Source: a virus. From it: a DNA stretch of 48,297 bases. The translations under genes and the position numbers were made by a program. The DNA is taken from positions 1 through 48,297 of IMG/VR virus record IMGVR_UViG_3300045240_000064; one strand, 5' to 3'. Below, one piece after another: positions 1,957 to 20,696 of this stretch (the stretch's first letter is position 1; each line of letters begins with the position of its first letter). The notes beneath the pieces were generated by a model that was given only the letters and a program-made list of their open reading frames with translations, did no database searches and was not told the origin of the DNA.

Positions 1957-3356
1957 CCCGCAAAATTCGCAGACGATCGGTGTTGAAGGGCGCGGGGGCC
2001 GCGGCCGTCACTTTCACCATGCCTGCACAGGCGCAATTCTTGGTTGGGGCTCCGGTCTCGCCGCCCCCGCCCCCACCTCCACCCGGACCTCCTCCAGGGC
2101 CGCCGCCCGCAGATTTTATCCGAGTCAATCGCGGGGCCAGCCAAGCGATCATTCAGACCATCCAGCCAGATGCCAGCAAGGTCGTGACGCAGATTGCAGG
2201 CGGACCGCATGTCGTAGGTCCGAGCTACGCATACTGGATCGATGGAGGGGCTGTGGATTGGACGCTGGACGGATCAGCGCTTCCCGATGCTGCTTTGCTT
2301 AACGCCCTAATCACTGAGCAACTCCCCCTACAGAACTGGGATCATTGGCACATCACACATGAGATTCCGGTGGCTGATGCTGCTGGCGACATCATCACGG
2401 TGATTCAGGTGGATGCGGTCGGGGCGACTATCGTCCCGCTGACATTTGCCCAAGTGAAGGCCCTGGCGCCTCAAATCTTTCTCCCTTACGCACCGGGCAG
2501 CTTGCCGTTCTTGATGGGCGCGTATCCGGCTGTGGGGAATGCAAATTCTGGTTCCAGTTGGAACTTGGGGATACCCATAACCTCGGCCGGGGCGACCACC
2601 GTTTCTTACACGTCTATTGTGTCGTGGCCTGTCAGCACAGGTAGCAATTATGGGGTGGACTGGGCTGCGAATTCGCCGGGGGTCTATTACACGAGCTCGG
2701 CGGATCAGGCGGTGACAGTGACGGTGTCGGGCACGCTGCTCGGATGGGCCGCTGGGAACGTGACGGTGCATCTACCGGCGAGCATTAGTGGGGCAAGCGG
2801 GAACGGGGCGATTGTCATTGTCGACGGGACCACCGTTTTCAATTTCCTCGGCTTCTCGCGCACCGGTCTGGGCACGGCTACGGCGACCTTCTATGGCCGG
2901 TGCGATGCGATGACTGACACCGGCTGGGGATTGGGGGGCACGAGCGCGGGGATGACGGCGGTCGGGTCGAGCATGCTGGCGGGGCTGCTGGTCCAGGCCG
3001 AGACCGATCAGGGCGAGCTCAATCACGCGCTGCAGTTGGTCACCCAAACGTCGATCACGTCTGCGGGGCATACGGGCGAGGCGATTGCAGGCGCGGGCGG
3101 CTCGGGGAGCTTGGTGCAGGAAGGGCAGCGGCTTGCGATCCCCTACAACACGGCGATGCCTGGAGGGTTGTCTGCCCTGGGCCAGAAAGTCTTTAGGACG
3201 CTGCAGAATTATGGTTGCTTCGTCGTCGATGTGGCGGCCGGGATTACTAAGCTCCGGGCGAATCTCAATGGCTATGACAGCACGATCATGGCGAATCTGG
3301 CAACCGACATGGGCAGCGTTCTCCCGTTGCTGCAGCATGTGACGATGGCGGGATAG
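1953..3356 (+). CDS. Tat-signal protein with proline-rich linker and repeated surface module (copy A)
   Basis: Begins inside the stop of the GH27 gene (ATGA). The N-terminus has a twin-arginine motif, RRSVLKG at residues 7-13, a hydrophobic stretch and an AQA cleavage site near residue 27, so it looks exported folded through the Tat pathway. Residues 35-52 are almost pure Pro/Gly. Residues about 190-460 form the module also found in three other genes of this window: [55 protein letters not shown]. No catalytic motif is recognised. Similar-looking sequences occur in secreted actinobacterial proteins, from memory only. A Tat signal on a gene among tail proteins is unusual. Confidence 0.8.
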
Positions 3357-3360
3357 GAAG

Positions 3361-6258
3361 ATGGCATTTAGCATAATCGACGAAGTCCCTAATCCGGCTA
3401 CACCGTGGGCGCTGCCGACTTGGGTCTCGGGAGCATCGCGCATAGGGCACACGCCGCGCTTGTTCATGACCGCAGCCAATAAGGCGAGGTTTATAACAAA
3501 CTGGAATGCATGTGCCCAAACCCCCTTGGGCGGACATGGAGTTACCAGCACATTTCCATTCCCGGATACCCTGACGATTGGGGTGCTTTGGCAATCCGGC
3601 ACTCCCGGCAACATTGCGTTGCAGAATTTGTTTAAGTGGCTGGCGAGCGGGACTCTATCTTTCCTCACTACTGCGGTCACTAACGCTCTTGCTGAGCCTT
3701 TTGGCTGGGGTTCGCAGTTCTGCTGCGCATCACATGCCGCTGCATATGTGCTCGATTGGGGTTACGATGCTCTGACGGCCGGGCAGCGGACTAGTTTGAT
3801 AAATTTGCTCGAAAACTACATGGCGCAGAGGGTCGTTTTGTTTCGGGGAGGACTTTCTGCAAATTTATGGGCAACTCATGAAGAACCATTTCATGGTTAC
3901 TGGTTAGGATTCTTGACCGGGCAGATCGCTATTCAGGGCGAAGTTGGTGCGACGGACAGGAATCTGCTGCTGCGCAATATGATCCAGAATGTCGTTTTGA
4001 GTGTCGATGATGCTCTTGGCGATGGTGTTCGGGCAGACTATGCCTACCAAGACGGATTTCTAGAGGTTTACTCAGTCATTTGGGAAATAGCGACAGGACA
4101 GCCGGCAGCGGACAACGCATACAATACCAATCGCGCCGAGGCGCAGGTGAGGCAATTGATCGGGGATGGATCGGGATGGGCGCCCTCAATAACGGGGGAC
4201 CAGACGGTCAATGACGATGGGAGCGTCTGCGGAGGTGGGAGCGGTGAGGCGTCCCCTTCCAGTCATCTTCATACCATCGGCCCCGCCTGGAATGCCGCCA
4301 TGATGGCGACAATGGCCCATGGAAATAATGGGATGTGGAAATGGCTTGAGCATCAATGCCAGATCGGGGGTGCTCAGCTAGCTATGAATCATGGTATGAA
4401 CGATTGCCCGATGTGGATCGGCTTGATATTTTATGACGCGACGATCACGCCCACTCCCCCGGAAACGCTGAGCTTACCGCTCAATAAAGCCCTGTTCAAC
4501 GCCAAGAGTGTTAATTTCCGCTCGGGCTGGACGGCTATGAACGCAGCGAATAGGGATGTACGGGTGTGGTTTACAAATCCGCCTTTTACAGAGCACGCCA
4601 AGTATGGTGCGGGGGTGGTGGAAGTTTGGAGGGGGATGGACGATCTTTTCCCAAAAGGAGGCTCTTATTTCTCTCATGGAGGGCAAGGTCATACGCTATA
4701 TTCTAATCTTTGGTATGGCAATAGCTTTTCGACTAACAGCATGGTGTTCTGCCCAGCCGGAGACAAGCATCCCGATACCAACGGGAGTCAGGAAAGTTTC
4801 GGGCAATATTCCTTTGCTAAGCCCGCCAATATGTATAATTCAAGCGCTCTTAGATATGCCATATATTCGTCGAGGTATATAGTTGGTGGTCAACTTAGAC
4901 TGGGCGAGCTTACGCATGTCGATTTGCCGGCAGGTGGTGCTTATGGCCTGGCCCATTCGGAGGTGGCCGAGGCGTATTACAGGACGACTAACCCCCCTGG
5001 AACCCCGATAACGAATTACACCCGCAAGGTCTGCTGTGTGCCGCAAGGCGTGGGGCGGATGCTGATTGTTATCCGGGATCAGTTCACGCCGGTCGCCGGG
5101 GTGGATAAGGTCAAGGTGGGCTGGCACGTTAGGGAAAAGCCGACTGTATCGTCGAGCTACCCGGCAGTGCAGGTGGCGGGAAATGCGACAGCAGGGGTGA
5201 TAAGATACAATTCGAAGCTGCCGCTGTTCTCCGAGGCCCAAATTCCGTTCACGGCGGCCTCGCCGTGGAACACTCAGATCGCGGCGAGCCCGACTTACAC
5301 CTCTATTAGTTGGCCGGCCGACACCGGTTTCAACTACGGCACCGGCTGGGATAACTTTTCGCCAGGAGTATATATCGCAAGTGCAACCGACCCGCTTGTC
5401 AACGTGACCTATCCGGCAGGTAGTTGGGGCAATCCGGGGCCTTTGGTGCAGGTCCGCATTCCGGCGGCGACTTTCACTGGCTCGATTTCTGGCACCACCT
5501 TGACCGTGACCGCGGTGGCCAGTGGGACGGTTCAGCGCGGCATGGTGTTGAGCGGCGGCTCCATTACCGCCGGAACGCGGATCGTTTTCAGTGATCCTCC
5601 ATTGACTGGCACAGGTGGAATAGGAACCTACACGGTTGACACGAGCCAAACGAGAGGATCGACCGCTATTACGGGACTTGTCTCCGGGGCAGCTGGGTCG
5701 GACAGCCAGATTCTGTGCATTGATGGCACGGTCTGTCATGAATTCTGGGTATTTAATCGAACGGGTCTGAACACCGGAACGGCCAGTGCTTATGCCTTTT
5801 CTGATACGGTAACCGGCACTGGCTGGGGATCTGGAGGCAATGGAGCGGGAACCGTCGCAGCAGGAGCTAGCCAGCTCGGTGGCCTGCTTAGACAACAGAT
5901 ATCCGATAGACAGGAAATTAATTACGCTTTGCAGATACAGATAGATGTCGCGCATTGCTTAACCGGCTTCGTTGCCCCTGCAATTGCAGGGGACGGGTCG
6001 GCAGTAGCAAATCCACCTGGTATTGTGCAGACGGGCCAAAGGCTGGGGATTCCAAGGACGACAGCGATGCCGGCAGGCATGTCGACACTCGGGCAGAAAG
6101 TGTTCCGGTGCTTGCAGAATTACGGATGTTACGTGGTTGATACTACTGGTGGTGTCTATGCATTCCGCGCCAATCAACTTGACTACACCGCTGCGACAAT
6201 CATCTCGTTTATCGCTGACTGCCCCAAGCTCATTCGGATATTAAGTAGGGTCACATAG
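3361..6258 (+). CDS. Heparinase-II/III-like polysaccharide lyase candidate with C-terminal surface module (copy B)
   Basis: 965 residues, RBS GGATAGGAAG just upstream. Residues 1-380 are helical ([26 protein letters not shown]), as in the alpha/alpha toroid of heparinase II/III and alginate lyases. Residues about 385-620 start with [23 protein letters not shown] and GGSYFSHGG, resembling the beta-sandwich where a His sits near the active site. Residues about 635-965 repeat the module of the preceding gene ([47 protein letters not shown]), interrupted at about residues 705-772 by another domain (see nested insertion). Probably degrades a host capsular or exopolysaccharide; enzyme class is inferred from fold-like pattern only. 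Confidence 0.65.
5475..5680 (+). other. Nested domain inserted into surface module copy B
   Basis: About 65 codons starting at [14 protein letters not shown] and ending near RGSTAITG interrupt the module exactly where copies A, C and D have a short Gly/Ala loop before the VIDGT strand. The pattern (LTVTAV.SG, GMVLSG, ITAGTRI, GTGG.GTYTV) is a small beta-domain seen in many phage tail proteins. Insert boundaries are judged by comparing the four paralogues and are approximate. Confidence 0.6.
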
Positions 6259-13861: not shown

Positions 13862-14656
13862 CTAGAATGGCAAAGCGAACTGGTCCTTTAGGTCTCCGGT
13901 GGACCGCCTGCGGTTTCTAGCAATAGTCAGGGCTCGAAGTTCGTTCCTGCGTTCCTCCGAAAGCATCATCTTCTTGCCTCTCTTCGCGCGCCCTATGTTT
14001 GCGCGATGCTTCTCCGTGAACGGACCTAACTTTTTCCCTCTTCGTGTCTCGCTGAATCTTTTGCGCGTCGCATCTGATGCCTTAGTGCCTAATCTCGCAG
14101 CGCTTATCTTGGGAACTTTCTTTCCTTTTTTTCCGGCACTGATCGCGGACCGATGACTTTCCGTGAATGGCGCGATCGTCTTCCCCTTTCGTTGGGCGCT
14201 CATCTTCGCTCGGGTTTCATCTGAGGCTTTTGTGCCTTTTTTGCTGGCGCTTATTGCGGCTCGATGTTCGGCTGAAAAGGGCGGCAGCTTTCGGCCTTTT
14301 CGGGACGAACTCATAAGCGCTCTTTGTTCGGCAGATCTCCGGCTCCCGAGGGGGCTTCCTGCAATGGGGTATGCGTTAAATCCTCTAGCCGGATCGGTCG
14401 ATTTAAGAGTGTCTATCCAATGCTGTTCACGCGCTATAAGGTCTTTTCTATCAGAGACATGTTCGATGACTTCGAAGACAAATGCGTCGGGACCATACTT
14501 CGTCCAGGATCGCTGAAGAAGCGGCGAGTGATGCACGCCTTGACGTAGCATCTTTAAATGAACGGACCATCTTTGGCGTAAATTGATTGCAGACCCCACA
14601 TAAACCTTACCGTTTATCGTGTTGCGAATTACGTATATTCCAGAAACCTCAGGCAA
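13862..14656 (-). CDS. GIY-YIG homing endonuclease with NUMOD3 repeats
   Basis: TTG start, supported by GGGAGAGG a few bases upstream on the minus strand. 264 residues: GIY at 6-8, VYVGS at 18-22, RQRW with the conserved Arg and REQHWID with the conserved Glu make a GIY-YIG nuclease core. From residue 105 there are five or six copies of a DNA-binding motif like SAEHRAAISASKKG (NUMOD3). It runs against all neighbours, the mark of a free-standing mobile gene. Flanked by ATGAACC on both sides. Confidence 0.88.
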   Translation of the reverse strand: MPEVSGIYVIRNTINGKVYVGSAINLRQRWSVHLKMLRQGVHHSPLLQRSWTKYGPDAFVFEVIEHVSDRKDLIAREQHWIDTLKSTDPARGFNAYPIAGSPLGSRRSAEQRALMSSSRKGRKLPPFSAEHRAAISASKKGTKASDETRAKMSAQRKGKTIAPFTESHRSAISAGKKGKKVPKISAARLGTKASDATRKRFSETRRGKKLGPFTEKHRANIGRAKRGKKMMLSEERRNELRALTIARNRRRSTGDLKDQFALPF

Positions 14657-15883: not shown

Positions 15884-16417
15884 ATGGCTGACCATATCAA
15901 AAGACCTAATCCCTTCAAAGGCAAGCCGCTCACGGCCGAAAGGTTGCGAGAAATGCTGAGTTACGAGTCTCTGACAGGGATCTTAATTTGGGCAAAATTT
16001 CCAAGTGGTGGCAGGAAGGCTGGCGACATCGCTGGAAGCATTCATCGTAGCACGGGGTATAGGCGCGTTAGGATTGACAAGCGCGACTATCTTGCACACC
16101 GATTGATATGGTTGTGGTTTTATGGAAAATGGCCGTCCGATGAAATAGACCATATCAACGGCGATAGAAGCGACAATAGATTTTGTAATTTGCGTGCAGC
16201 TACTGCATCACAGAACAGGTGCAACACGAAACTACTTAAAAGAAATTCGGCTGGTCTAAAAGGCGCACATAGAATTAAAAAATCAAATAGATGGGGGTCT
16301 AGCATTCGGGCTAATGGGATTACACATCATCTAGGGACATTCACAACGGCTGAAGAGGCTCACTCAACTTATGTTGAGGCCGCCAAAAGGATGTTTGGAG
16401 AATTTGCTAGATATTAA
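15884..16417 (+). CDS. HNH homing endonuclease with AP2-like DNA-binding domain
   Basis: 177 residues. Residues about 84-112 (DEIDHINGDRSDNRFCNLR) are an HNH_3 nuclease core; the C-terminus (GAHRIKKSNRWGSSIRANG, HHLGTFTTAEEA) is AP2-like. Codon use and base composition are clearly more AT-rich than the neighbours (many AAA, AAT, ATA codons), pointing to recent transfer. RBS GTAGGAG upstream. Lies between two hairpins at the end of the rightward block, so it disrupts nothing. Confidence 0.88.
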   Translation: MADHIKRPNPFKGKPLTAERLREMLSYESLTGILIWAKFPSGGRKAGDIAGSIHRSTGYRRVRIDKRDYLAHRLIWLWFYGKWPSDEIDHINGDRSDNRFCNLRAATASQNRCNTKLLKRNSAGLKGAHRIKKSNRWGSSIRANGITHHLGTFTTAEEAHSTYVEAAKRMFGEFARY

Positions 16418-17106: not shown

Positions 17107-17336
17107 CCGCCGCTCTTGTCGGGGAGGGAGGGACGAGGCGGCGGAGGTAAGTCGCCCCAAACCAATTCGACTCCTGCCATGGTTCCGTCACTGGCGATGT
17201 CTACGATCGCCGTGACTTCGATTTGCCTCTTATAGGGCGGCGCGGTTCGCTCGGCCGGCGCGAAATAGTAGAGCGGACCGTCCTCAAGCTGGCAGGTGTA
17301 CCAAGCGGCGCGTTGTTCGAGCTTTTGTTTGGTCAT
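17103..17336 (-). CDS. Small hypothetical protein with PSLPDKS tail
   Basis: 77 residues: MTKQKLEQRAAWYTCQLEDG, a beta-rich middle (IEVTAIVDIASDGTMAGVEL) and a tail ending PRPSLPDKSGG. The tail is encoded by the 21-bp repeat shared with two neighbouring loci. Overlaps both adjacent genes by four bases. No family recognised. Confidence 0.6.
   Translation of the reverse strand: MTKQKLEQRAAWYTCQLEDGPLYYFAPAERTAPPYKRQIEVTAIVDIASDGTMAGVELVWGDLPPPPRPSLPDKSGG
17111..17132 (-). repeat. Start-linked direct repeat, copy 1
   Basis: On the minus strand this reads as a C-rich block followed by GACAAGAGCG, ending about five bases before the ATG at 17106. Copies 2 and 3 sit the same distance from the next two affected starts. 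Copies 1 and 2 also encode the tail PSLPDKS of the upstream gene. Confidence 0.75.
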
Positions 17337-17866: not shown

Positions 17867-18376
17867 TCATTGGTCGAGCACGACCTTGGCGAACCGAAGA
17901 CAACGCATCATCGTGCCTATTACGGGCTCAGCCGCCTTGAACCATTCTCCTTCGACGCGGAAGCGGTTAAGGAAGACATGAAGCCGCTTCTCGTCAGCCG
18001 GAGATCCACGCACGACCACGAAGGCATCGATCTTCATTGGTAGACCCGTCTTCAATGAGCTGATCCTGCCGCCCGGGGTGGTGGATCTCCCTATTTTGAT
18101 GCGGTCTCCGACCCTCAGGAAATAAACCCATTCGCCTTTGGGTGGCTTCTCCCGCACAAAAAGTGATGCCGCGCGCGGCTGACTCAGAGCTCCAGGGTCT
18201 TTTACGTATCGCCAATAGGCGTCTAAAAACTCTGGCGATCCATAGCCGCCAGGAAGCGCGACGCGAGCGTGTCCTTTGCGGCGAAAGTAGTGCCTAGGAT
18301 GCCCGTGTCGATCCACGTAGCTGTGGATGAATTTTAGCCTCCTGGCGGTGATGTCGTTGGTCTTAAGGCGGTTCAT
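17867..18376 (-). CDS. Fusion of integrase N-terminal DNA-binding domain to GIY-YIG-like (T5orf172/Mug113) nuclease
   Basis: 169 residues. Residues about 13-58 (RLKFIHSYVDRHGHPRHYFR, ALPGGYGSPEF, DAYW) match residues 4-46 of the integrase in this window (KLKYIHAYIDRHGHARHYFR, SLPGLPGSSEF, AAY) at roughly two thirds identity. Residues about 82-150 (WVYFLRVGDRIKIGRSTTPG, RISSLKTGLP, DEKRLHVFLNRFRVEGEWF) form a GIY-YIG-related T5orf172/Mug113 domain. The N-terminal domain in integrases binds arm sites, so this nuclease may bind the same DNA. A candidate attP lies directly upstream. Function inferred. Confidence 0.8.
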   Translation of the reverse strand: MNRLKTNDITARRLKFIHSYVDRHGHPRHYFRRKGHARVALPGGYGSPEFLDAYWRYVKDPGALSQPRAASLFVREKPPKGEWVYFLRVGDRIKIGRSTTPGGRISSLKTGLPMKIDAFVVVRGSPADEKRLHVFLNRFRVEGEWFKAAEPVIGTMMRCLRFAKVVLDQ

Positions 18377-18564
18377 TTTTTCCTCTGGTTCGAGAGCGTA
18401 ATTGGCTCACCCGATTTTCAACTGGCTCACCCGTAGAAAACATAATGCAATTACAATTGGTTACTATCATTGACACATGGGGGTCGAAGAACAAGGAGTT
18501 CTAAGGTTTCGTTGAAATATTTGCATAATTTTCAGGCTACCCGGTAGAAACCACTCACTGAGAT
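18377..18564. other. AT-rich intergenic region, candidate attP with arm-like repeats
   Basis: The only sizeable gap in the leftward operon. TGGCTCACCCG occurs at 18403-18413 and 18423-18433, exactly 20 bp apart, and a related GGCTACCCGGTAGAAAC lies at 18535-18551 (compare GGCTCACCCGTAGAAAAC at 18424). Between them is an AT-rich stretch. Direct repeats flanking an AT-rich core near an integrase gene suggest arm-type sites of an attachment site, or an operator. Core site not identified. Confidence 0.4.
18403..18433. repeat. Two 11-bp direct repeats, 20-bp period
   Basis: TGGCTCACCCG appears twice, spaced two helical turns apart, so a protein could bind both on one face. A degenerate third copy is at 18535-18551. 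Confidence 0.75.
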
Positions 18565-18861
18565 TCAAGGCTTTTTGGCGATAGTGTCTACCTTTGTCGG
18601 CCATAGACGCTGGGCTTCCTCAAGGATCGGGTTGATCCACTCATCTTCGTCTGTGACTGTATCGGTGGCGTTCAACATATCGCCGAGTTGCTCCATGAAG
18701 AACGTGGTTCGCCTTCCCACCATGTCCTCGCAACCTTCAAGACCGCCATCGCTGGTCTCGAATATCGAGGCGTAGTCGGAATGGACTTGTGCGAGGACAG
18801 TTGCCATATGGGCTATGGCCTTGCACTGATCCGATATCTGCTTGCGCCTTCTGTCGCTCAT
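18565..18861 (-). CDS. Helical hypothetical protein
   Basis: 98 residues: MSDRRRKQISDQCKAIAHMA, VHSDYASIFETSDGGLEGCE, acidic C-terminal half (ATDTVTDEDEWINPILEEAQ). Mostly helical, acidic; no family recognised. Start overlaps the stop of the zinc-ribbon gene upstream. Confidence 0.65.
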   Translation of the reverse strand: MSDRRRKQISDQCKAIAHMATVLAQVHSDYASIFETSDGGLEGCEDMVGRRTTFFMEQLGDMLNATDTVTDEDEWINPILEEAQRLWPTKVDTIAKKP

Positions 18862-19094
18862 TTACCGCTCCCGCTTGCTTCGGCCTCGCGCACGTCTGGC
18901 GGATATGCTTCATCGCGGGCGTCGTAATTGCAGTCATTGCATTCCCATCCCGTATCGAGTTCTCCACCGCATTCGGGGCACACATCGCGTCGCGCGTAAG
19001 ACCGGCGCAGCGGAGCCGATTTGATCGGAAACAGACCGGATGCCCGTCTTTCCTCGATGCGCTCAAGTTGCCGACGTGTTGGTTCAATGCTCAT
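18858..19094 (-). CDS. Zinc-ribbon protein
   Basis: 78 residues. Basic start (MSIEPTRRQLERIEERRASG) and a four-cysteine ribbon CPECGGELDTGWECNDCNYD at about residues 39-58, likely binding one zinc. Ends EASGSGK, the same tail as the next gene upstream (LSGSGK). Overlaps both neighbours. Confidence 0.7.
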   Translation of the reverse strand: MSIEPTRRQLERIEERRASGLFPIKSAPLRRSYARRDVCPECGGELDTGWECNDCNYDARDEAYPPDVREAEASGSGK

Positions 19095-19360
19095 TTACCG
19101 CTCCCGCTCAGCTTGCCGATTGCAGCGTCGATCATGCCTCTCCAAGCGGCGGCTAGATCGTCCTTATCGCCCAAATTCCAGCTTTGATGAGTATCGAAGC
19201 CGCACTGAAGCATCTCTTCTGTCGGCTCGCGCATGGCCTCGATGGCGGCTCTGGCAAGAGCGAAGTAGTGCGCCTTAGCATCGGTCTGTTGTCCGAGTCT
19301 CCAAGGCTCCGAAGCGTCAGCAATCGCCATCGCCACGCGCTCCTCAAATATTGAGCTCAT
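19091..19360 (-). CDS. Small early protein of the PTEEM family
   Basis: Start at ATG 19360, overlapping the integrase stop by four bases; the longer frame is integrase shadow. 89 residues: MSSIFEERVAMAIADASEPW, REPTEEMLQCGFDTHQ, AAAWRGMIDAAIGKLSGSGK. The PTEEM...W..MIDAAI pattern recurs in many phage early proteins and also, in part (PTEEM), at 21729-22256. Function unknown. Confidence 0.7.
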   Translation of the reverse strand: MSSIFEERVAMAIADASEPWRLGQQTDAKAHYFALARAAIEAMREPTEEMLQCGFDTHQSWNLGDKDDLAAAWRGMIDAAIGKLSGSGK

Positions 19361-20463
19361 TTCAATTTCCCTATAGCCGTCTCGCCAAGCCTGTCCTGGC
19401 TGGCGTCTCGTGTGTAGCGCTCGACCTCGCTCAATGAGGCGTGGCCGGTGATGGCGGCGATCTCGTGGGCGGTGCAACCGGCTTCGGCTAGACGGCGCGC
19501 AGCGGCCTTCCTGAGCCCGTGCGAGGCGCATTCCTTGGGAAGGCCGGCCCGACGCACCATCTTCGCGAACCACCCGCCATAGCCGTCCGTCGTAAACGGT
19601 CGGCCGTATTGCGTGGTTAGGATTGCGATATGCTCGCGGGGCGCAGCATCGAGCGCTGCGGCGAGGTTCGGGTGGATCGGGATGCGCAGGCGCTTGCCCG
19701 TTTTGGCCTGTTTAATTTGGATCGCGCCCCCGCTCAGCGCTAATTGCCGGCGGGGGCTAGTGTCAGAATTGGTCCTGGCGTTGGTGTCAGCTGGCATCAC
19801 CTCCTCTCGGGTCACGATGTCCCGCCACGTCATGCGGATAACGTCTGAGCGGCGCTGCCCAGTGTAGAGATGCAAGGCGAATGCTAGACGCGCCTTTGTG
19901 CCGATCGGCCAGTGTTGCTCAAATCGCTCGATCTCCTCATCCGTCCATGGGTGATAGCCGCCGCTCCGGATTCTGATGCGCTTAATTCCGGCAACAGGAT
20001 TGTCGTCGCGATAGCCTTCATCGACGGCAAACTCCATAAGGACGCGCAGGACAGCCAGGAAATTGTTAGCTCCGCTAGGTGTAGCCGCCTTTGAGGCAAA
20101 TAGCTTTTTCACGATATCGCGGCTCAAGTCCTTGACGAGCCGGTGCCCATGCTCTGCACGGAACGGATCGAGGATGCCGCGGTAAGCTCTCTGGGATGGA
20201 CGCTTGAGCCCCAGGAAACCCGCAGAGGCAAGATAGTCCGTCACGAGGGCCTCGATGCTGCCTCGGGGAGCGATCGGCCTCACCGCTCGTTTCTGTGGCT
20301 TCTGGATGCCATCGAGCGCTGCCTGATAGGCGGCCATGAACTCGCTAGAACCCGGCAAGCCCGGCAGCGAGACCTTCGGCGAGCCACGGCGGCGAAAATA
20401 GTGGCGCGCATGCCCGTGCCGGTCGATATAGGCGTGGATGTATTTTAGCTTGAAGCGGGTCAT
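19357..20463 (-). CDS. int: Tyrosine-recombinase integrase
   Basis: Start at ATG 20463, overlapping the excisionase-like stop; upstream frame is shadow. 368 residues: N-terminal arm-binding domain 1-50, core-binding domain about 65-155, catalytic domain 170-360. Catalytic set: R204 (TGQRRSD), K254 (AKTGK), H315 and R318 (SHGLRK), H341 (TGHAS), nucleophile Y350 (VERYT). A loop of about 25 residues (around 218-243) is inserted before the K strand. Catalyses integration into and excision from the host chromosome. Embedded within the leftward operon rather than at a genome end. Confidence 0.95.
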   Translation of the reverse strand: MTRFKLKYIHAYIDRHGHARHYFRRRGSPKVSLPGLPGSSEFMAAYQAALDGIQKPQKRAVRPIAPRGSIEALVTDYLASAGFLGLKRPSQRAYRGILDPFRAEHGHRLVKDLSRDIVKKLFASKAATPSGANNFLAVLRVLMEFAVDEGYRDDNPVAGIKRIRIRSGGYHPWTDEEIERFEQHWPIGTKARLAFALHLYTGQRRSDVIRMTWRDIVTREEVMPADTNARTNSDTSPRRQLALSGGAIQIKQAKTGKRLRIPIHPNLAAALDAAPREHIAILTTQYGRPFTTDGYGGWFAKMVRRAGLPKECASHGLRKAAARRLAEAGCTAHEIAAITGHASLSEVERYTRDASQDRLGETAIGKLK

Positions 20464-20696
20464 ATATCGCTCCACGAATTTGCTGAGACCGTATTCTGCC
20501 CCGTAAGCTTGTCGAATGCCAAGTCCAGCGCCCGGATGTCCCAAACCTTCCTCGAGCGGATATGCACGGGTTGCGGTAGCGATCCCTCGCGCACGAGCTC
20601 ATCGAACATCGTTACGCCGATACCGACGTAGCTCGCGGCTTCCTCGCGGTTGAGCGCGCGTCTAGGATCGACGACGACACGTTGCTGCGTGCTCAC
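20460..20696 (-). CDS. Excisionase-like winged-helix protein
   Basis: 78 residues: ALNREEAASYVGIGVTMFDE, LVREGSLPQPVHIRSRKVWD, the AlpA/Xis-type MerR-like fold. ATGA overlap with the integrase start gives coupled translation. Probably the recombination directionality factor, bending attP DNA; it could also regulate transcription. Confidence 0.75.
   Translation of the reverse strand: MSTQQRVVVDPRRALNREEAASYVGIGVTMFDELVREGSLPQPVHIRSRKVWDIRALDLAFDKLTGQNTVSANSWSDI

Follow-up and report, generated by a model that had tools for sequence, protein, structure and literature searches.

Why should a phage carry, one kilobase beyond its integrase gene and at what looks like its own attachment site, a second gene that begins as the integrase does but ends as a nuclease? 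The question is raised by a reading frame, termed here P0001, in a viral record of 48,297 nucleotides (IMGVR_UViG_3300045240_000064), the whole of which is referred to below as the window. The answer favored here, for which the odds seem evenly balanced, is that P0001 is an attachment-site-directed nuclease, derived from a homing endonuclease and aimed at the arm sites of attP, serving either homing or attack on rivals.

Composition and setting of the fusion gene

The reading frame lies exactly where the preliminary description had placed it (Table 1); it is uninterrupted, and a Shine-Dalgarno-like AGAGGA precedes its ATG, while no sigma-70 promoter was found before it by consensus. Its N-terminus is, as had been claimed, paralogous to that of the phage's own integrase (P0002): residues 13-54 share 27 of 42 positions (64%) with residues 5-46 of the integrase (E=3e-17 in a single comparison), and the match is not due to chance, because a profile made solely from integrase N-termini detects P0001 with 75 bits and E=1.3e-21. 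Its C-terminal half (residues 84-159) matches the Pfam families MUG113 (PF13455, 4.9e-8) and T5orf172 (PF10544, 2.6e-4), both above the cut-off, and Pfam finds in the protein neither the recombinase domain (PF00589) nor RepA_N, HNH_3 or AP2; the earlier statement that a T5orf172/Mug113 domain has replaced the recombinase part is thus borne out. PADLOC, which covers known anti-phage defence families, reports nothing for P0001. Within the nuclease domain are found Tyr85, KIG (94-96), Arg104, Glu129 and GEWF (143-146), and because Tyr85, Arg104 and Glu129 are kept in near relatives, the nuclease is probably active. Judged by its sequence, then, P0001 is a chimera: its N-terminal module is that of its own integrase family, and its nuclease domain is of the GIY-YIG (MUG113/T5orf172) kind, the catalytic Arg and Glu being conserved. 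Nor is it a recent copy or an assembly artefact--a point on which the preliminary description was also right--because its nucleotides have diverged from those of the integrase (~64% identity over 46 codons, with one 61-nt block at 79%) and other integrases are equally close or closer at the DNA level.

Structure prediction, which had been proposed as a check, yields an AlphaFold model with two confident domains, a beta-beta-beta-alpha fold at residues 17-59 (strands 17-21, 27-31 and 39-41; helix 48-59) and a GIY-YIG-type fold at residues 83-162, joined by a linker of which residues 66-77 are disordered. In integrases the module is N-terminal and has the same predicted topology, which is that of arm-DNA-binding domains; this position and topology, together with the arrays of arm-type sites described below, suggest that the module would itself be an arm-binding domain. 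Foldseek returned no solved arm-binding structure matching it at E<0.001, and a search for a relative in the PDB likewise found none; the integrase of Pseudanabaena phage Pam5 matches Arm-DNA-bind_3 (PF13356) weakly (E=0.11).

Table 1. Positions of the fusion gene, the integrase, the predicted attachment site and related features of the window
Feature	Position	Strand	Remarks
Fusion ORF P0001, integrase-type N-terminal module plus MUG113/T5orf172 GIY-YIG domain	17867..18376	-	169 aa
N-terminal module of P0001	18197..18343	-	residues ~12-60; integrase N-termini profile and AlphaFold model
GIY-YIG-type nuclease domain of P0001	17891..18130	-	residues ~83-162; Pfam, conservation, model pLDDT ~90
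Predicted attP, four arm-type sites, inverted relative to int	18403..18594	+	best match in the 48-kb window
Arm-type site A	18403..18412	+	TGGCTCACCC
Arm-type site B	18423..18432	+	TGGCTCACCC; 20 bp from A
B-C gap, expected attP core	18433..18533	.	analogy: the published phi2LM21 core falls between B and C
Arm-type site C	18534..18543	+	AGGCTACCCG; weaker
Arm-type site D	18585..18594	+	TGTCTACCTT; 51 bp from C; overlaps 3' end of ORF 18565-18861
Tyrosine integrase P0002, with same N-terminal module	19357..20463	-	368 aa; PF00589 6e-20, phrog_1 4e-44
N-terminal module of P0002	20308..20451	-	residues ~5-52; predicted beta-beta-beta-alpha
Small HTH, possible excisionase	20460..20696	-	AlpA-like by eye; directly upstream of int; from sequence
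HNH_3 plus AP2 homing-type nuclease gene	15884-16417	+	Pfam domains
GIY-YIG plus NUMOD3 homing-type nuclease gene	13862-14656	-	

Small ORFs occupy the interval between integrase and fusion gene. The small HTH gene has no Pfam match; in the Sinorhizobium prophage phi2LM21 an annotated AlpA regulator occupies the same position directly upstream of int. Two identical 20-mers recur at gene junctions of the window: CTCTTGTCGGGGAGGGAGGG at 17113, 17343 and 17845 (plus-strand coordinates), three junctions of the minus-strand block, and GCTCATTTACCGCTCCCGCT at 18856-18875 and 19089-19108, two junctions. No tRNA that could mark attB was found in the window, and a search for a close relative of the int-fusion locus found none.

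Arm-site arrays and the predicted attachment site

In the 700 bp that follow integrases of this family on the 3' side, the motifs TGTCAAAC, TGTCTAAC, TGACTAAC and GTAAACCC show a 20- to 60-fold enrichment and recur within a locus. A de novo plan of attP, built from other phages, consists of four TGNCNAACC-like arm-type sites at fixed spacing whose variable bases are specific to each locus: A, 13-30 bp, B, ~80-112 bp, C, ~45-53 bp, D. Scored with a weight matrix plus this spacing, 41 of the 65 loci lie above the 99th percentile of the 192 control tiles, though 17 loci served to train the matrix and their scores are circular. An independent check is provided by phi2LM21, whose att core corresponds to the first 17 bases of the record, within tRNA-Phe (PMC5537653). 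After its int, GTCCAG sites occur at +25, +54, +161 and +209, and the published core, at +105 to +121, falls between B and C as the plan predicts (PMC5537653). The matrix alone does not call this prophage, because its motif differs enough; its sites were recognized as a repeat with the right spacing. The array is also present in the cultured Agrobacterium phage Rivra (score 54.2) and was not seen in Pan3 or ctOK67. The predicted attP of one contig (L138), +737 to +911 from int, has the same inverted orientation as that of the window; in another (L041) a stand-alone HNH-like ORF without the module directly follows the predicted attP, at +565 to +894 from int.

Similarity between modules predicts similarity between arm motifs (p 0.0005; simple Mantel p 0.01), an effect that is no longer clear when the remainder of the integrase is corrected for (partial Mantel p 0.097).

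Applied to the window by a model trained without it, the plan gives the array upstream of P0001 a score of 42.2, and its second-best match anywhere in the 48 kb reaches 25.4; none of 192 null tiles (maximum 36.2) and none of 60 whole-window shuffles (maximum 33.5) attains 42.2, and the repeat formed by A and B is longer than that in any of 500 shuffles. The array begins ~27 bp upstream of the start codon of the fusion; the DNA proposed earlier for binding and nicking assays (18377-18564) does hold the predicted attP array (18403-18594). An IS21-type terminal repeat was considered as a source of the TGGCTCACCC repeats, and no match was found in plasmids.

Probable repeated capture of integrase modules by nucleases

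To what extent is this arrangement shared? The integrase or its N-terminus served as the query for retrieving loci, and the profile of integrase N-termini was run over all reading frames of the 145 loci. Integrase N-termini fused to nucleases--of the MUG113 type, a second GIY-YIG type, and HNH--were found in six further viral contigs, each beside an integrase gene. In L025 the partner is an HNH, endonuclease-VII-like domain (phrog_3322, 1.6e-19); in L084 and L092 it is the second GIY-YIG type, as it is in L146 and L147, which came from a further scan; and in L001 a MUG113 nuclease carries a different integrase N-terminus, one that is 50% identical to the N-terminus of the L144 integrase. All seven fusion genes lie just 3' of an integrase, overlapping it or coupled to it in L001, L092 (translationally coupled, with a 4-nt overlap) and L146, within 0.22 kb of it in L025, L084 and L147, and 1 kb from it in the window. 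Few such fusions are known (three in ~100 contigs fetched through integrases). One scan of bacterial genome contigs yielded a lone Curtobacterium GIY-YIG gene.

In five of the contigs the fused gene also adjoins attP-type repeats. Besides the window these are L025, with three AGTGACTAA between int and fusion; L146, where four GTCCCACC stand at the fusion's 3' end; L147, where arm-type repeats TTAGTAACC abut the fused gene; and L084, where arm-like TNGCTAAC (located by eye) lie on both sides of it, at 5261-5277 and 5851-5998, as if a nuclease gene had been inserted at attP. No clear array of this kind was recognized in L092.

The partners bear upon two rival explanations. In the 145-locus scan 129 module matches carry the recombinase domain and the other partners, fragments aside, are nucleases plus one DUF551 fusion; the many unrelated partners that the preliminary description had named as grounds against its proposal were not seen. 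According to the first rival, P0001 is an ordinary free-standing homing endonuclease whose integrase-like module is a generic DNA-binding bead with a target other than attP. Phage T5orf172/MUG113 and HNH genes do often carry swappable DNA-binding modules (PMC10448857), the window itself has an HNH-AP2 gene and a GIY-YIG-NUMOD3 gene, and MUG113-type genes without the module also adjoin integrases (L060, at 1369-1845, and L009, which is phage Pam5, at 2731-3330). The scan nevertheless lends no support to a generic bead, since outside the fusions the module was seen only in integrases; the fusions, moreover, occupy int-attP instead of being spread over the genome, and this explanation is considered improbable. 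According to the second, duplication and deletion at int-attP, a hot spot of recombination, joined the first codons of int to downstream DNA, yielding a by-product of evolution with no selected function. The one DUF551 fusion could be such a case: at 9995-10651 of L126, directly after an AlpA-like gene, an integrase module is joined to a DUF551-like protein and the recombinase part is lost. Yet every other non-recombinase partner of the module is a nuclease, a different integrase N-terminus (that of L001) was also joined to a nuclease, the active-site residues of MUG113 are conserved, and the ORFs are intact and diverged, all of which makes a mere by-product very improbable.

A third rival turns on whether each module resembles that of the integrase next to it. 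P0001 may be an accessory factor of the phage's own recombination, one that binds the attP arms of its own genome and adjusts integration or excision, whether through competition with Int, nicking or transcriptional repression, and attacks nothing elsewhere. When the fused modules are compared with 101 integrase modules, the own integrase ranks 1 for the window and for L084, 2 for L092, 49 for L147, 60 for L146 and 68 for L025; in the window it comes first by alignment score only narrowly. The integrase beside the L001 fusion belongs to a different type, and no second copy of the fused N-terminus is present in that record. Thus in four of the seven fusions (L001, L025, L146 and L147) the module is not the best match to the neighboring integrase. 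In a tree of the 56-residue modules, whose resolution is weak because the module is so short, the fused modules are scattered among those of integrases, and only L084 (bootstrap 94) and L147 (70, an exception among the four mismatches) group with their own integrase; the module of P0001 groups with those of the L072 and L087 integrases (88).

These comparisons reject an exact match to the own integrase as a rule: it is not general, and holds in about three of seven fusions. Of the earlier proposal that P0001 is a nuclease with the DNA address of its integrase, what remains is an integrase-type module on a nuclease with intact catalytic residues, whereas an exact match to its own Int is less well supported, given the narrow first rank and the tree; and when it is asked, as had been proposed, whether fusions accompany integrases with a matching N-terminus, six more fusions were found beside integrases, of which four are mismatches. 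Fairly read, the fused modules in some cases come from the phage's own integrase or have been kept close to it, and in others neither holds. A single ancestral fusion is not supported by the module tree, weak as that tree is, and because the fused modules are scattered within it, capture of an integrase module has probably happened repeatedly.

For an accessory role speak the high ranks in the window, L084 and L092, the proximity to attP-type repeats in five contigs, and the coupling to int in L092. Against it are the four mismatched modules, the recruitment of three unrelated nuclease types with their catalytic residues kept (competition with Int requires none), and the fact that most family integrases work without such a gene. 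On balance an accessory factor is regarded as rather unlikely.

A proposed attachment-site counterpart of origin-directed nucleases

The preliminary description knew of no described system of this kind; in that form the claim fails. Odn (Gp88), the origin-directed nuclease of the Vibrio phage ICP1, is a T5orf172 nuclease whose DNA-binding domain is borrowed from a replication initiator; the domain resembles that of a satellite's own initiator and aims the nuclease (PMC8263062), and Odn-like RepA_N-T5orf172 proteins occur in E. coli phages (PMC10448857). By analogy, Odn offers the strongest general support for the mechanism considered here: in both cases a protein by which a mobile element processes its DNA has lent its DNA-binding domain to a T5orf172/MUG113 nuclease, which would thereby be aimed at that element's key site. 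The two differ in that the address of P0001 is an integrase N-terminal module rather than RepA_N, that this address resembles the phage's own integrase, and that its predicted target is the arms of attP rather than a replication origin. Odn cuts the origin of a rival element and protects the phage, and for P0001 the corresponding activity is a prediction. A search covering part of the literature found no description of an integrase-GIY-YIG fusion.

P0001 also shares features with three other kinds of protein. Like GIY-YIG homing endonucleases it has a nuclease domain with catalytic Arg and Glu, a flexible linker and a separate predicted DNA-binding module, and its gene lies beside its presumed target. 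Like the HNH-AP2 homing endonuclease of the window it joins a small DNA-binding domain to a nuclease, and the AP2 fold is related to integrase arm-binding domains; AP2, however, is a separate sequence family, is C-terminal and has no link to a particular integrase. With the tyrosine integrases of alphaproteobacterial temperate phages it shares the type of N-terminal module and the location of its gene beside attP, but it has a nuclease in place of the catalytic recombinase domain. The T5orf172 homing proteins known to date have for the most part zinc-finger modules (CapR/DUF723/DUF4397), and no integrase module was found described in the same source (PMC10448857).

If P0001 is indeed an attachment-site-directed nuclease, its module would bind the arm-type sites of attP as it presumably does in the integrase, and the flexible linker would let the GIY-YIG domain cut DNA near them. 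P0001 may act on the attP regions of relatives or satellites that infect the same cell and have arm sites in common with the carrier, in which case repair of the cut from the DNA of the carrier would leave a copy of the gene in the relative (homing at int-attP), or the rival would be excluded, or both. A point against the proposal is that A and B are also present in the attP of the carrier, which must somehow avoid cutting itself. These two sites, lying before the fusion gene, could also let the fusion protein or Int repress its transcription; I-TevI is known to repress its own transcription. That the window holds two other homing-type nucleases was counted in favor of this explanation.

The module of L001, and by similarity that of L025, would point to a foreign integrase, which is what a weapon against rivals calls for; the prediction for the L025 protein is a preference for GTCCCACC-like arms rather than its own GTGACTAAC. 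For the window and L084 the module would lead to the phage's own attP, an arrangement compatible with homing between relatives, with autorepression at A and B, or with an accessory role. For the family as a whole it is proposed, more tentatively than for P0001 itself, that integrase arm-binding modules have repeatedly been captured to give nucleases that cut the attP of rivals or satellites, or that home into int-attP, as a counterpart of origin-directed nucleases.

Whatever the function of P0001, the attP plan (A-B-core-C-D, with TGNCNAACC-like sites) has a use of its own, namely to locate attP where a temperate phage is known from metagenomes alone, and the 192-bp predicted attP beside the fusion gene provides a testable target. 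If the proposal is true, three types of nuclease took the same route to attachment sites, and the principle embodied by Odn--the joining of an enemy's DNA-binding domain to a nuclease--would extend from replication origins to attachment sites.
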